Positions 6,299 through 12,183 of a stretch of 22,202 bases of DNA are shown one piece after another (within the stretch, counting starts at the first letter, position 1; each line of letters begins with the position of its first letter). Source of the DNA: a virus; the IMG/VR virus record IMGVR_UViG_3300020192_000086, positions 1-22,202 of that record; one strand, given 5' to 3'. Below the pieces are notes generated by a model. The model was not told the DNA's origin. It saw nothing but the letters and a program-made list of their open reading frames with translations, and searched no databases. The translations under genes and the position numbers were made by a program.

Positions 6299-6771
6299 TA
6301 TCTACTCCTGTATTCATAAATTTGATATCCAGCGGGCTCTACTTGGTCGTTAATAGCTTTCCCGTTTACGTCAATCCCACCATATACTATCGAAGATGGG
6401 AAGTCCCACTCTCTGCATATGCCAAGATAATTAATTGGATCGTTTGTGTAATTAATCATGCTGAACTCGAATATGTATTCGGTATCCGTTTCACCTTCAG
6501 CTCGGTGTAAAATTAAACTATCAAAATCAAATCGAATGTAACCATGTGCATAAGTTTCAGTCTTAGCTGCGTTTATGTCTACATAGTTAATTAATGCGGT
6601 ATGCAATAGGTTTGCACCTTGGTAGACCCGGCATCTAAAGTCCCCGGTGGTTAAAGTGCCCTGAAGATATACCCACGGCCTGATGTGGACAACAGATACC
6701 GATCTTGATACCTTAATCTTCTGAGGGAATATAACGCCAGTAAATAATTGATCGACAATGAGGATACTCAA
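6298..6771 (-). CDS. Small beta-rich tail protein (unknown)
   Basis: Encodes 157 residues beginning (as fMet) MSILIVDQLFTGVIFPQK. The start is a TTG at 6771 with GAGG four bases upstream, and the TTGA overlap with the preceding stop supports it; there is no in-frame ATG nearby. The sequence is rich in Tyr, Ile and alternating hydrophobic residues (RFDFDSLILHRAEGETD, EYIFEFSMINYT), compatible with a compact beta sandwich. No signal peptide, membrane segment or catalytic motif. It sits between the distal-tail-like protein and the long fibre, so it may help attach the fibre to the baseplate. I do not recognise the family. Confidence 0.6.
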   Translation of the reverse strand: MSILIVDQLFTGVIFPQKIKVSRSVSVVHIRPWVYLQGTLTTGDFRCRVYQGANLLHTALINYVDINAAKTETYAHGYIRFDFDSLILHRAEGETDTEYIFEFSMINYTNDPINYLGICREWDFPSSIVYGGIDVNGKAINDQVEPAGYQIYEYRSR

Positions 6772-7541
6772 GTTGCCTCTTTAATTCTAACTGTAGCGTT
6801 CCACGTTCTTCCACCACTAGCGGTCCATACTGGAACTCGATTAAAGTATCCATATACAGTAAGCTTAGTGTCCCCACCGATCATAGCTTCGCCGTCTTTA
6901 TCTACGATCATCCATATTGGCTCATGTCTGCCGTGGCGGATAAACAACGTATCTAGTATTTCCTGTTCCGTCTTAGTACAGTATTCTAGGCTTCCACTCA
7001 ATGTCTTTTGTAGCGGTCTTTCATTAATAAACTTTTGACCGTATTCGCTTTCGCTGGTGTCTGAGGTATCAGCGTATTCGTAATTGAAGGATGCAATAGA
7101 TAAACTGTTTTGTTCGATGTTGGTTAACTCGCCGATAAAGATGTTACCTACTTCGACATAGGACCCTTGTCCAGTAAACGTCATCTGAACAAACCGATGG
7201 CTTACCTGATTAATGTAGCTGTATCCCATATTTTGGGAAGGGTCCATTGTTAGGTTGTTAATTGGTGAACTTGAAAAATCGGTGGTGACCGAGGTCTTAT
7301 AACTAACCGCAGTCATACCAAAGGTCTCAGTCTTGTCACCCATTACAGTAACCGCGTCTATATCTCGAACTTGTATTAGGTCTATTTGAACAACAACCGT
7401 ATTACCAGTTGACCTAAACTTAACACTAGGAGAATCGTTATTAAGATTGACAAGAGGAAACTGAGCATTAGCTACACCCGTGGTAAGAGTTTTTGTTCCA
7501 GCCTTAAATAAGTTATCTGATAAAAAGTTAATTCCAGACAT
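6768..7541 (-). CDS. Distal tail (Dit-like) protein
   Basis: Encodes 257 residues. The ATG (7541) shares one base with the TAA of the tape measure gene. The N-terminal half (about 10-135) resembles a discoidin-like sandwich (NLFKAGTKTLTTG..., IDLIQVRDIDAVTVMGD). The C-terminal half (about 145-257) contains GSLEYCTKTEQEILDTLF, EPIWMIVD and a terminal beta pair ending RTWNATVRIKEAT. This two-part arrangement directly after the tape measure protein matches distal tail proteins that cap the tail tube and form the baseplate platform in siphophages. The assignment rests mainly on gene order and overall architecture, so an alternative name such as minor tail protein is possible. Confidence 0.6.
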   Translation of the reverse strand: MSGINFLSDNLFKAGTKTLTTGVANAQFPLVNLNNDSPSVKFRSTGNTVVVQIDLIQVRDIDAVTVMGDKTETFGMTAVSYKTSVTTDFSSSPINNLTMDPSQNMGYSYINQVSHRFVQMTFTGQGSYVEVGNIFIGELTNIEQNSLSIASFNYEYADTSDTSESEYGQKFINERPLQKTLSGSLEYCTKTEQEILDTLFIRHGRHEPIWMIVDKDGEAMIGGDTKLTVYGYFNRVPVWTASGGRTWNATVRIKEAT

Positions 7542-10102
7542 TATACACCACCTTCACCTAGAGCTAAACCGTTAGCAACTTGTCTAGATACCGCTCTGCC
7601 GATTTCATTTTCATCTATCTGTATTATACTTGTGACCTCGATCATCTGTCCACCAGAAGATCCACCATTTGATTGATTAAATAGTTGAGTTTGTTGTTGT
7701 CGGTTTAAAATCATTTCACCAGAATTTACTCTAGCTAAAACTTTATCGCCGCTAAAGCTTCCACCGCCAACGATACCACCGTCTTGAAAACCCTGAATCG
7801 CTGAAGCAAGAACCGTTGCAGTACCAATCGCCGCAGCAATGTTTACACCTGCCGTTAGTTTTGCAGCCGCAGCCGCCCTGATTGACTGTGTCGGAGTTGG
7901 ATCTAATAATGGCGCAACTTGCATAGGAATTAATCCTAACGCTGTACCACGGGCCAATGCTATTTGAGCTAGAGCCGCAGCTTTTTGAATAATGAATTGT
8001 TCTTTAGATCCGCTTTTAGCTAACGCAGATGCCAACCCAAACCCGGCACCAACAATATCATTTCTTTGTTTAGCTAATGTTCTTTCAATATCAAGAGACG
8101 CGTTGTTTGATTTCTTGAGATCATCTATTTTCCTAGCGTTTTCTTTCTTTTGATTATCAATCTTTGTTTTAGCATGTTCGTCAAAAAGAAATAGCTCTGC
8201 GGTAAGAAACGCCTTTTGGTCTTCTAGTTCTTTTGCAAGTTTTTCTGCTTTTAGTTGTAACTCTACCTCTTCTCTAGCGGCGTCTAACTCATCGCTGGCT
8301 AAAAACGCGGCTCGCTGTTGTTCTAATTTTAATTCATTTTCTTGTTCACCAAAGTTTTTAAGGGTTTCAAGCCTTTTTTGTTGGTCGGTCTTTAGGTCTT
8401 CTGCACGTTGTTCTGCAAGTCGGCGTTCGGAAGTGTCCCCAGTTTGCCCTGCGCCCCCCGGACTGCCTAATCGTTGTTCGGCACGTTGCCCATCGACTCC
8501 GCCGGAAGATTGTATTAGCCGTTCTAGACGTAGCTCTTCTTCTTTCTTTTTAATAACATCTTTAAGTATTTTATCTTTTGCTTCTAATCGCTCAAGTTCG
8601 GAATCTAATCCAGGGATCGAAATTCCTAATAATGTTGTTGTTGCACTTGCTAGTCGCAATACACTAAGCGTAACCGTATCCCAGTTTCTAATTAGAACAA
8701 CCACTATAGCAGTTAATGCGGCAATAGCAGCAATCGCGATAGTCACTGGTAAATTTATAGCTGCCCACATAGTAACTGCGACGGCTCGAACCCCAACCAT
8801 AGCTGCCTGCATCAAGGTAAGTCCGCTTAACATAAGTAGAACATTAGCATTAAACGCAATAAACGCAACAGTCGATATGGCTGCAAAGGTAATAATAATA
8901 TCTAAATTTTCGGTTATTACATCAATTAGTTTTGTTAATCCTGATATAGAGGCGTTGATTGCCGGTACAACTCCACCAACTATAGCATTTGTAAGTACGA
9001 TCCAACTGTTTGATAGCGTGGTTAAATTACTATCCAGGGTAGCAAATGCTGCCTCAGATTCTTCGATTAATGATGTGTTTTCTTTGTAAGCTTTAGATGA
9101 TAAATTTAATGCTTCTGTTAATAAATCAGTTCTGTCAATCAAAGGGCCTAATGTTTTAGTAACCCGTAGATCGTTAAATCCTAATTCGGCTAGAGACGTT
9201 GATAAGTTTTTACCACCATCCGCGCTCTTCTTAAGACCCTCTACTAATTTAAGAAAGAATTGATCGGGTTTAGTTTCAAATAAGGTTGTGAACTCTTCAT
9301 TGTTAAGTCCCAATACTGAAGTAAACTTTTCTAATGAGCTGCCGCCTTTGCCGATGGCAATCTCAACTAAAGAAAATACCTTTTGAATTGTTGAACCACC
9401 GACCTGCGCCTCGGTTCCTAATGCGGACATAGCTGTAGATAGACCTAGCACTTGTTCTGCGGTTATTCCAAACCGGGCTCCGCCCTTAGCAACTTCGTTA
9501 GAAACTGTTAATATTTGGCTTTCAGTTGCAGCAAAGTTGTTACCAAGAGAAACTATAGACGACCCAAGCCTGTCTATATTTTGTACAGACTCTCCAGTTA
9601 CGTTTATGATCCTGGCAAAAGCAATCGCGCCTTGTTCACCTATAATATCAGTTGCAGAAGCAAGCCGGGCCATTGTCTCTGTAAATTTTAATATGTTGTC
9701 TGTACCCTTAACGCCCAATTGCGCTGCGGTTTGCGCCATGCCAGCTAGCTCAGTAGATGCAACCGGGATTCGTTTAGATAGGGCCTCTAAGTCTTGACCA
9801 AGTTTAACTAGCGCGTCTCCAGATAATCCGGTAGTCTTACCGACACCAACTAGTGCAGTTTCAAACGCTCGTAAGTTAGTTACGGAATTACTTATGCCGT
9901 TAATCAGGCCGCTGAAGGCTCTAAATACAATAGTGGCCCCAAGGTTTCCAATAAAGGAATTGAACGCACCTTGTGTATTTTTAACGATTAACTGTAGGCC
10001 ATCTAGCTTCTGACCTGCACGTTTTGCCCCAGCACCAAACTCATTCAACCCTTGGGTTGCTGCGCTAGATACCAGGCGTATGTTAATATTAATGTCACTC
10101 AT
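7541..10102 (-). CDS. Tail tape measure protein
   Basis: Encodes 853 residues. The ATG (10102) overlaps the TAA of the chaperone extension by one base. Residues about 75-380 show the phage tape measure core (TGLSGDALVKLGQDLEALSK, TELAGMAQTAAQLGV, GITAEQVLGLSTAMSALG). A long hydrophobic stretch (about 401-473) could form membrane-spanning segments used in DNA delivery. Residues about 505-690 are Glu/Lys/Gln-rich coiled coil (KKKEEELRLERL, EDQKAFLTAELF). The end contains FQDGGIVGGGSFSGDKVLA and NSGEMILNRQQQ, a typical C-terminal tape measure signature. It sets tail length and threads through the tube. At the usual ~0.15 nm per residue, 853 residues would predict a tail near 130 nm. The size and the absence of sheath genes argue for a siphovirus. 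Confidence 0.93.
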   Translation of the reverse strand: MSDININIRLVSSAATQGLNEFGAGAKRAGQKLDGLQLIVKNTQGAFNSFIGNLGATIVFRAFSGLINGISNSVTNLRAFETALVGVGKTTGLSGDALVKLGQDLEALSKRIPVASTELAGMAQTAAQLGVKGTDNILKFTETMARLASATDIIGEQGAIAFARIINVTGESVQNIDRLGSSIVSLGNNFAATESQILTVSNEVAKGGARFGITAEQVLGLSTAMSALGTEAQVGGSTIQKVFSLVEIAIGKGGSSLEKFTSVLGLNNEEFTTLFETKPDQFFLKLVEGLKKSADGGKNLSTSLAELGFNDLRVTKTLGPLIDRTDLLTEALNLSSKAYKENTSLIEESEAAFATLDSNLTTLSNSWIVLTNAIVGGVVPAINASISGLTKLIDVITENLDIIITFAAISTVAFIAFNANVLLMLSGLTLMQAAMVGVRAVAVTMWAAINLPVTIAIAAIAALTAIVVVLIRNWDTVTLSVLRLASATTTLLGISIPGLDSELERLEAKDKILKDVIKKKEEELRLERLIQSSGGVDGQRAEQRLGSPGGAGQTGDTSERRLAEQRAEDLKTDQQKRLETLKNFGEQENELKLEQQRAAFLASDELDAAREEVELQLKAEKLAKELEDQKAFLTAELFLFDEHAKTKIDNQKKENARKIDDLKKSNNASLDIERTLAKQRNDIVGAGFGLASALAKSGSKEQFIIQKAAALAQIALARGTALGLIPMQVAPLLDPTPTQSIRAAAAAKLTAGVNIAAAIGTATVLASAIQGFQDGGIVGGGSFSGDKVLARVNSGEMILNRQQQTQLFNQSNGGSSGGQMIEVTSIIQIDENEIGRAVSRQVANGLALGEGGV

Positions 10103-10563
10103 TATTTTTTGTTCCTGTTTTGTTTAGATTCTCGTATTGCTTCTGCATGAGCCTTTTGTTCGGCCTCGAATTTAAGTTCGTCCATGATGCTGAAATATTC
10201 GATGACTTTATTCGGTTGTTCGCTATAACCACCAGAAAACGGTAGAGCATTATGCTTATCCCACGCCTGGAATATGGTATAAATAAACCCCGAATTGGGG
10301 TGCTTATACGACTTAATATCATTTTCAAATCTAATATTAAGCCCGATAATTGATCTACTGCCCATAGCCTTTCGCATTTCAGCTAACTGTTGATCAGTAA
10401 AGCCGCGCTTTAATAGCCTTGGGTCTATTCCATTATTTTTAGAAAAGGATAAATACTCGCCCACGAGCAGGGCACGTTCGTATTCTGTTACGCTAGATAT
10501 GCGTAAGATTTTGGCAATAATAAACTCCCACAATTTATTAACCGGGATGTGAGAGTCTTCTAC
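10102..10563 (-). CDS. Tail assembly chaperone, -1 frameshift extension (gpT-like half of gpGT)
   Basis: This frame has no convincing start of its own. It is open from the slippery heptamer of the preceding gene, in the -1 frame. A -1 slip at 10563 would add 153 residues (VEDSHIPVNKLWEFIIAKIL...) to the 135-residue upstream protein, giving a product of 288. The only candidate independent start near the beginning is a TTG at 10533, which lies in the downstream stem and has no ribosome binding site. Residues like NALPFSGGYSEQPNKVIEYF and the charged helical end (FEAEQKAHAEAIRESKQ) match what I know of downstream tail chaperone halves. The long form is expected in small amounts and guides tail tube polymerisation around the tape measure protein, encoded next. 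Confidence 0.8.
   Translation of the reverse strand, partial: VEDSHIPVNKLWEFIIAKILRISSVTEYERALLVGEYLSFSKNNGIDPRLLKRGFTDQQLAEMRKAMGSRSIIGLNIRFENDIKSYKHPNSGFIYTIFQAWDKHNALPFSGGYSEQPNKVIEYFSIMDELKFEAEQKAHAEAIRESKQNRNKK
10524..10556 (-). promoter_or_regulatory. Frameshift-stimulating stem-loop
   Basis: On the minus strand ACTCTCACA (10556-10548) pairs with TGTGGGAGT (10532-10524): nine consecutive base pairs with one G-U wobble, around a 15-base loop. It begins six bases after the slippery heptamer, a normal distance for a -1 frameshift stimulator. It is coding in the -1 frame and has no U-tract, so it does not look like a terminator. Confidence 0.7.
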
Positions 10564-10967
10564 TTTTTTTCTGTGACTTCTCCGGATTCTACATAAGATA
10601 CCCCGTCAAGAGGTTGACCTGTTTCGGGATGTAGAAATTGATCAGGTATTCCATTTAAAAGAGAAACGCATACCAGATTGATTTTAGTTCCAACCGGAGA
10701 GTTTAATAACATATCCACGGTTTTATCGTCTAGTTGGTTGTTTTTCGTTTTAAGTTTAAAGTCTTTACCATCTCGGGACTTTAGTCCTTTGATATCTTTA
10801 ATGGCGTATCTCATTGCTAAGATCGCACCCTCAAGAGCTTCTCTATTCAAGAAGAGGTTTTGAATTTCATTCTTTTGTTTGTAAGTCAGGGGGCTAACGC
10901 TAACCGTCAACCCCTCAACATTTACTTCTATTATATCGTCCGTACTATAAACGGTAAAATTTTGCAT
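10560..10967 (-). CDS. Tail assembly chaperone (gpG-like)
   Basis: Encodes 135 residues. ATG at 10967 with GGAGA six bases upstream. The protein starts MQNFTVYSTDDIIEVNVEGL with a short beta-rich N-terminus (1-30), followed by a helical middle (YKQKNEIQNLF, LEGAILAMRYAIKDIKG) and a polar C-terminus ending VTEKK at the slippery sequence. Position between tail tube and tape measure, size, and the -1 frameshift at the end match the gpG type of tail assembly chaperone first described in lambda. It acts in the cytoplasm during tail assembly and is not expected in the mature virion. Most ribosomes should stop at TAG (10562-10560), making this short form. Confidence 0.85.
   Translation of the reverse strand: MQNFTVYSTDDIIEVNVEGLTVSVSPLTYKQKNEIQNLFLNREALEGAILAMRYAIKDIKGLKSRDGKDFKLKTKNNQLDDKTVDMLLNSPVGTKINLVCVSLLNGIPDQFLHPETGQPLDGVSYVESGEVTEKK
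10563..10583 (-). promoter_or_regulatory. Programmed -1 frameshift site (A AAA AAG with upstream SD-like element)
   Basis: The last codons of the upstream chaperone gene read GAA AAA AAG TAG, so A AAA AAG (10569-10563) is in the correct register for a -1 slip, with the zero-frame stop immediately after it. This is the same heptamer used by E. coli dnaX. A Shine-Dalgarno-like GGAG (10583-10580) lies 10 bases upstream of the heptamer, comparable with the dnaX stimulator. Together with the stem-loop at 10524-10556 all three known elements of this signal are present. Confidence 0.8.
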
Positions 10968-10989: not shown

Positions 10990-12183
10990 TTAGCTTGCAG
11001 TAATATAAAGCTCTTCTTCGGTACCAGCCGCTCCGCGACCGGCAGTAAAGCCTAGCTCTTCCTGCAATAATCCATCTTGATCCGCTTCTGTAGCTTCTGT
11101 GATAATACAGTTGGGTAGATAAAACGCTACCACTTGACCATATTGACCAGCAACTCCAGACGGAACATACGCAGAACCAAACAAACTAAATTCAACATTG
11201 TTTCTGAATCTGTTTGATTGCGCAACGCTATCGTCCTGCTTATACGGATTAAAACTTCCGGTTACAGTTCTTTCTGTAGGCCGACTTGAAATCCTGCCAT
11301 TAGAAGAACAAGTTGAAGTAACAAACCCTAAAGTATTCTCTAATGAGAATGATAGTTCGTTAACCGCGACCTGTACGCCATCTTGGAATACGCAAGCGTT
11401 TAGAATGATAGGTGGCTGTGCAGTATCAAAGCTTGGGGTAAATGGGTTAGCAGTTAAGCTATGGTCCCAATCGAGACCTTCCATACCAAAGTTGAAACTA
11501 GCAAGCTGCCCGGTGGTAAAATTCTCTAGTGATAGACTAGTAACTTTAACTCCAGTACCGCGTTCTAATCTTGCATTCTCAATATACTTAGATATTGATA
11601 GGCTTGGGTGACCACTATCCGCAGTTACATAAGTAGTAATCGCAGCGATTATCGTACTGTTTGTAAATGCAATCGCAGCGGGCACAAGTATATCAATGTA
11701 TACGTTGGCAGCTATATCACCTTTTGCAACAACCGGAGATGTATGATATGCTCCAGTGGTCTTGATAGTAACGATATCACCGATATTATATTTTGCAGCG
11801 GCGGCATTAGGTAGATACGCACGAGTAGTGGTATGTGTTCCACTGCTATCAGTTGCATCTATAGTAGTAGCCGTCACTTGACGCCTAAGACCCATAGCCG
11901 ATCTCATTAACTTATCATATTCTGGTGCAGTACCTTCGATACTATGTGCTCGCATTTCTACGGGCATAGAGCCTGATACGCTCCTTGTTCCAGTAAGTGG
12001 CGTTGATTTACCGATAGATCCGTTAAGAATGTTACGTTCCAATGTTTCTTTAGCTGGTGTCAGTTCAAACCCATCCGATAGGGTCTGTACATAACTGCCC
12101 GCACTACTTGGTGCAACGTATATTCCTTCTGTTACTTCGATCTCAACCGCTACTACTGTATTATTTTTAACAGCAATTGCCAT
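10990..12183 (-). CDS. Major tail tube protein
   Basis: Encodes 397 residues. ATG at 12183 with AGGAG six bases upstream. The N-terminus (MAIAVKNNTVVAVEIEVTEGIYVAP) and the statement-like blocks FELTPAKETLERN and SVSGSMPVEMRAH are typical of phage tail tube proteins. Residues about 105-190 look like an inserted small beta barrel (KYNIGDIVTIKTTGAYHTSP). The later part includes LSLENFTTGQLASFNFGMEG, FSLENTLGF and RTVTGSFNPY, the usual beta-sandwich strands and long hairpin. The protein is longer than simple tube proteins such as lambda gpV because of the insertion and C-terminal extension, which may project from the tube. It polymerises as rings into the tail tube. The neighbours (tail terminator upstream, chaperones downstream) give the canonical order. 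Confidence 0.82.
   Translation of the reverse strand: MAIAVKNNTVVAVEIEVTEGIYVAPSSAGSYVQTLSDGFELTPAKETLERNILNGSIGKSTPLTGTRSVSGSMPVEMRAHSIEGTAPEYDKLMRSAMGLRRQVTATTIDATDSSGTHTTTRAYLPNAAAAKYNIGDIVTIKTTGAYHTSPVVAKGDIAANVYIDILVPAAIAFTNSTIIAAITTYVTADSGHPSLSISKYIENARLERGTGVKVTSLSLENFTTGQLASFNFGMEGLDWDHSLTANPFTPSFDTAQPPIILNACVFQDGVQVAVNELSFSLENTLGFVTSTCSSNGRISSRPTERTVTGSFNPYKQDDSVAQSNRFRNNVEFSLFGSAYVPSGVAGQYGQVVAFYLPNCIITEATEADQDGLLQEELGFTAGRGAAGTEEELYITAS

Follow-up and report, generated by a model that had tools for sequence, protein, structure and literature searches.

The 22,202-base virus record analysed here, referred to as the window, very probably carries a programmed -1 ribosomal frameshift that yields, as a minority product, a gpG-gpT-like fusion of two siphophage tail assembly chaperones, judging from its sequence and that of its relatives. 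Both chaperone ORFs lie on the minus strand (Table 1). Most ribosomes would terminate at the TAG of ORF1, yielding a 135-residue chaperone. On some, both lysine tRNAs would slip back one base on A_AAA_AAG, and translation would continue into ORF2 to give a protein of 288 residues. The internal GGAG is predicted to base-pair with the anti-SD of the ribosome as it translates, and the hairpin further downstream to slow this ribosome; both elements should make slipping more frequent. If the roles known from lambda apply, the tape measure would be coated by the ORF1 part, and the ORF2 part would bring in tail tube subunits. We infer the slipping itself, together with the role of the stem, the roles of the proteins and the product ratio, from the features described below. 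A -1 slip by the ribosome would account for the heptamer register, the direction of the shift, the substitutions among heptamers and the distance of the SD found in the family.

The predicted chaperone gene pair and the proposed signal at its junction

Table 1. Positions of the chaperone ORFs, the flanking tail genes and the elements of the putative frameshift signal in the window.
Feature	Position	Strand	Details
Tail tape measure protein	7541..10102	-	PHROG tape-measure families, best E 3.1e-65; Pfam PhageMin_Tail
ORF2, -1 frame extension (T-like)	10102..10563	-	153 aa after slip
Hairpin	10524..10556	-	9-pair stem, 15-nt loop, 6 nt (UAGAAG) past heptamer
Zero-frame stop TAG	10560..10562	-	abuts 3' end of heptamer
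ORF1, upstream tail assembly chaperone (G-like)	10560..10967	-	135 aa; ATG start; ends ...GEVTEKK-TAG
Slippery heptamer A_AAA_AAG	10563..10569	-	X_XXY_YYZ register; within seven-A run
SD-like stimulator GGAG	10580..10583	-	followed by 10-nt spacer before heptamer
Tail tube protein	10990..12183	-	Pfam Phage_tube_2, E 7.6e-14

The genes are arranged in the order terminase, portal, capsid, tail tube, ORF1, ORF2 and tape measure, which points to a phage of the siphophage type. The overlapping ORF pair is placed between the tail tube and tape measure genes, as is typical of G/GT-type pairs, and this position is a stronger argument for chaperone identity than the fold match. AlphaFold models generated from family alignments reached a pLDDT of 93.4 for ORF1 and 91.3 for ORF2. 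The predicted ORF1 fold bears a modest resemblance to the HK97 chaperone. Its top PDB match in Foldseek was the HK97 tail assembly chaperone 2ob9 (probability 0.82, E 0.12), with a VIA Z of 5.0 over 87 residues that is tied by a Vibrio phage-inducible island protein (Z 5.6), and the model also matched several viral models named tail assembly chaperone.

Neither ORF matched family profiles above the cut-offs, with ORF1 showing a weak match only, to a PHROG of unknown function, and none above the cut-off in Pfam. For ORF2, no convincing known relative was found by family profile or fold. Searches of 50,697 phage records with both ORFs gave no match, cultured phages gave none to the tail tube protein or the protein encoded at 6768-7541 either, and viral contigs searched directly with the ORF1, ORF2 and tape measure proteins returned no relatives. 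Within the family described below, the ORF2 domain occurs in two forms. Many loci (L037, L040, L048, L050, L054, L056, L057, L058 and others) carry CxxC...C...C cysteines resembling a zinc knuckle, and ORF2 of the window and its nearest relatives are without them.

All four parts of the signal proposed in the preliminary description are present, its interval 10524-10583 corresponding to minus-strand 10583..10524. The zero-frame codons at the end of ORF1 read GAA AAA AAG TAG. From the slip site to its end ORF2 contains no stop, and its TAA overlaps the tape-measure ATG. The proposed products of 135 residues for the zero frame and 288 residues (135 + 153) for the fusion were reproduced from the ORF coordinates. 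In the hairpin, ACUCUCACA (10556-10548) pairs with UGUGGGAGU (10532-10524), and RNAfold predicts an 11-pair stem (10558-10522) located 4 nt past the heptamer with an energy of -13.4 kcal/mol. Compared with dinucleotide shuffles, the hairpin has a z of -3.3 in a 43-nt piece and weaker values of -1.4 to -2.7 in other pieces.

AAAAAAG occurs seven times in the window when both strands are counted, and in two cases an SD core is found 8-13 nt upstream. The junction site alone combines an SD, AAAAAAG and a hairpin of -13 kcal/mol or better, where 0.013 such triple sites are expected from dinucleotide shuffles of one strand. The other AAAAAAG with an SD-class core lies out of frameshift register in the terminase gene (21889-21883, minus strand). 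This phage uses SD-led initiation, a value of -5 kcal/mol or better being reached at 8 of its 16 gene starts against a background of 8%. As its genes carry SDs at their starts, the host ribosome can pair with an internal SD.

Slip site and shift direction are conserved

Relatives were fetched using the tail tube protein as an anchor, resulting in 37 non-redundant loci with both ORFs, the window included. A second set fetched with the ORF2 alignment contributed 15 further non-redundant loci, for a total of 52 (again including the window) from many metagenomes. ORF1 and ORF2 overlap in the -1 direction in all 52 loci, and an in-register X_XXY_YYZ heptamer is located within the overlap in 51 (37/37 in the tail-tube set and 14/15 in the second set). 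Among the 37 loci, 1.9 heptamers would be expected based on other ORF1 windows and 5.0 based on codon shuffles. At the sequence level, this shows that slip site and shift direction are conserved, and it answers the question, raised in the preliminary description, of whether homologues keep the heptamer.

In the tail-tube set we counted 26 A_AAA_AAG, 2 G_GGA_AAG and 1 C_CCA_AAG, followed by 5 A_AAA_AAA, 2 A_AAA_AAC and 1 C_CCA_AAA. For overlaps with more than one heptamer, A_AAA_AAG was taken first and then the one nearest the stop, a rule that inflates the A_AAA_AAG tally and not the presence count. The heptamers substituting A_AAA_AAG differ in sequence and follow the same slip rule. In E. 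coli, A_AAA_AAG, G_GGA_AAG and C_CCA_AAG slip more efficiently than any other heptamer (PMC4066793). The sole family member without a canonical in-register heptamer is L095 (copies L096-L098), whose junction codons are GTA AGA GAA AAA AGC with the A6G run out of register, which would reflect a different way of slipping or else an error in the sequence that the copies have in common. Two loci differ in layout. In L057 the chaperone pair starts ca. 600 bases past the tail tube gene with extra sequence between them, and in L032 extra sequence likewise follows the tail tube gene and no chaperone pair was found at the usual place.

Lysine-rich C-termini make AAA AAG common at ORF1 ends, and the heptamer could in principle be a by-product of such tails next to a chance frame disruption or sequencing error. 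We give this explanation almost no credence, since the identical -1 overlap recurs across 52 loci from many metagenomes and synonymous recoding with the protein fixed retains a heptamer in 8.4 +/- 2.4 of 37 loci (maximum 17 in 1000) against 37 observed. No single uninterrupted ORF across the junction was found in the relatives.

The run of seven consecutive A in the window, with longer A runs in several relatives, would also allow transcriptional slippage, in which mRNAs with altered A counts give the -1 product without any ribosomal slip. However, the run is replaced by C_CCA_AAG, C_CCA_AAC, G_GGA_AAG or A_AAA_AAC in some relatives, heptamers that preserve tRNA re-pairing and not a long homopolymer, and many relatives have six A only. 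Further, an SD at 9-11 nt would have no role for the polymerase. Slippage during transcription is very unlikely on these grounds.

ORF2 could alternatively be a separate gene translated by reinitiation or from a start of its own (TTG 10533), with GGAG serving that start or translational coupling. The ORFs do overlap, coupled genes often have an SD just ahead of a stop (PMC5009743), and TTG 10533 is present as the sole -1 frame start codon near the junction. Its SD is weak, however (-2.4 kcal/mol), and in 30/37 loci the first possible start lies at least 12 residues into ORF2, at scattered positions as late as residue 77, or is missing altogether. Only 2/37 loci have an ATG as their first or second start together with an SD at or below -5 kcal/mol. 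In addition, aligned ORF2 residues begin right past the junction, the SD distance is fixed relative to the heptamer and not to any start, and reinitiation leaves the in-register heptamers in the overlaps unexplained. Independent translation of ORF2 is highly improbable in view of this evidence. The earlier remark that the downstream frame lacks a good start holds across the family, where no conserved or SD-supported start emerged among the 37 loci. Together with the conserved heptamer, register and direction, this supports the original proposal that the two tail chaperone frames are joined through a programmed -1 frameshift.

The upstream SD and the downstream hairpin

Among the 26 A_AAA_AAG loci, 15 have an SD core (GGAG, GAGG or AGGA) 8-13 nt upstream, compared with 1.3 expected by position from same-phase windows and 7.4 +/- 2.0 (at most 15 in 1000 draws) when the protein is fixed and codons are redrawn. 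The signal is thus carried partly by amino-acid choice and partly by codons. In these 26 loci, pairing with the anti-SD has a sharp maximum where the spacer measures 7-10 nt, and it is far weaker elsewhere. SD cores occupy all three codon phases (spacers 8-12), which argues for selection at the RNA level. In the second set, 5/14 loci have an SD core where 0.5 are expected. On the tail-tube tree, for which SDs were assigned manually using both pairing and cores, slightly more widely than by the core rule, the SD is concentrated in the window's clade with at least nine state changes. Because of this clustering the loci are not fully independent, and the above counts overstate the number of events.

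Stimulation of -1 frameshifting requires an SD 9-14 nt upstream (PMC5009743), a range that includes the 10-nt spacer of the window. The suggestion that GGAG is an SD-like stimulator gains support from its position-specific enrichment, which lies above the synonymous controls and is repeated in the second set. Sequence comparison thus shows the upstream SD to be a real part of the signal that is under selection in the window's lineage. In the literature examined, we found no explicit description of an SD-stimulated tail chaperone frameshift. Conserved SDs are known from 3/13 IS/prophage clusters (PMC4066793), and we therefore make no claim of priority.

In the window, folding of the 50 nt past the heptamer surpasses that of 98.5% of synonymous ORF2 recodings (z -2.8). 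Of the 37 loci, 12 have a z below -1.5 in this comparison, and the mean over the family is -0.81 (s.e. 0.22). Measured against shuffles, folding reaches its lowest value in the immediate surroundings of the heptamer, forming a shallow dip. No equivalent hairpin was found in the nearest relatives L011-L014. The stem noted in the preliminary description thus stands out in the window itself and is not conserved in its nearest relatives, and a stimulatory role specific to this lineage is plausible from sequence. The sister loci L021 and L023 have a common hairpin of their own (CUACCC/GGGUAG, with differing loops) directly after A_AAA_AAG TAA, which is a cleaner stem candidate than that of the window. 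No trade-off between SD and stem was detected (Spearman 0.05, p 0.76).

It may be that selection keeps the SD as a permanent component of the signal in this lineage while the hairpin comes and goes, a reading that we regard as evenly poised. If true, the chaperone ratio would depend chiefly on which heptamer is used and on pairing between mRNA and rRNA, as in dnaX and insertion sequences, and not on conserved RNA structure. The ca. fifty natural variants of one signal, with varied heptamers and with or without an SD or stem, would allow testing which stimulators set the chaperone ratio.

The unusually efficient slippage predicted in the preliminary description is a conjecture, as efficiency would depend on the lysine tRNAs of the host and on stem strength. 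In E. coli, A_AAA_AAG ranks with the best heptamers (PMC4066793), and a single lysine tRNA reads AAA and AAG there, as in about half of known bacteria (PMC5009743). Tail chaperones usually require a low fusion ratio of a few percent. The ratio in lambda is ca. 30:1 (PMC5009743), and frameshifting of 6-7% was measured at two HK97-like chaperone sites (PMC3711429). Regarding the host, alignments of the tail tube protein and ORF2 gave no relative among 84,980 bacterial and archaeal genomes, and no tRNA genes were found in the scanned parts of the relative G001/L013. The DNA polymerase of this relative is closest to those of Salinibacter and cyanobacterial phages, and its identity of 25-31% is too distant for naming a host.

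Comparison with known frameshift systems

The -1 frameshift of lambda G/GT and of HK97-type tail assembly chaperones was reportedly described by Xu, Hendrix and Duda in 2004. The window shares with these systems the position between tail tube and tape measure genes, the overlapping frames, the -1 shift near the end of ORF1 and the T-like extension in the predicted fusion, and the modeled ORF1 fold modestly resembles the HK97 chaperone. In contrast, no sequence relation was detected between the window ORFs and the chaperones of cultured phages. The lambda slip site is G_GGA_AAG, whereas the window family mostly uses A_AAA_AAG. The window lineage has a conserved upstream SD, none being described for lambda-type systems in the literature examined, which includes a review of the lambda G/GT and HK97-type frameshifts (PMC5009743). 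The phages that fuse their tail chaperones through a -1 frameshift would thereby gain a siphophage lineage that is divergent and has no cultured member, in which automatic annotation would show ORF1 and ORF2 as two unrelated genes.

The preliminary description had emphasized how closely the layout follows E. coli dnaX. The likeness itself is confirmed for A_AAA_AAG, the SD ca. 10 nt upstream and the hairpin a few bases downstream. It is not special, since IS911 and further insertion sequences likewise combine an SD, A_AAA_AAG and a stem (PMC4066793, PMC5009743). The dnaX gene is a different gene for which no homology is claimed, and its shift truncates the product whereas the phage shift would extend it. 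Further, unlike dnaX, the window has a zero-frame stop directly past the slip site and a modest hairpin that has a 15-nt loop and is not conserved. In IS911 and the IS3 family, GGAG, A_AAA_AAG and a stem-loop likewise direct a shift giving a longer fusion (OrfAB), although the product is a transposase with no relation to tail genes (PMC4066793), and an SD stimulator is used by ca. 56% of IS elements (PMC5009743). The locus is a further example of a familiar phage mechanism, for which the evidence of an SD stimulator is stronger than usual.
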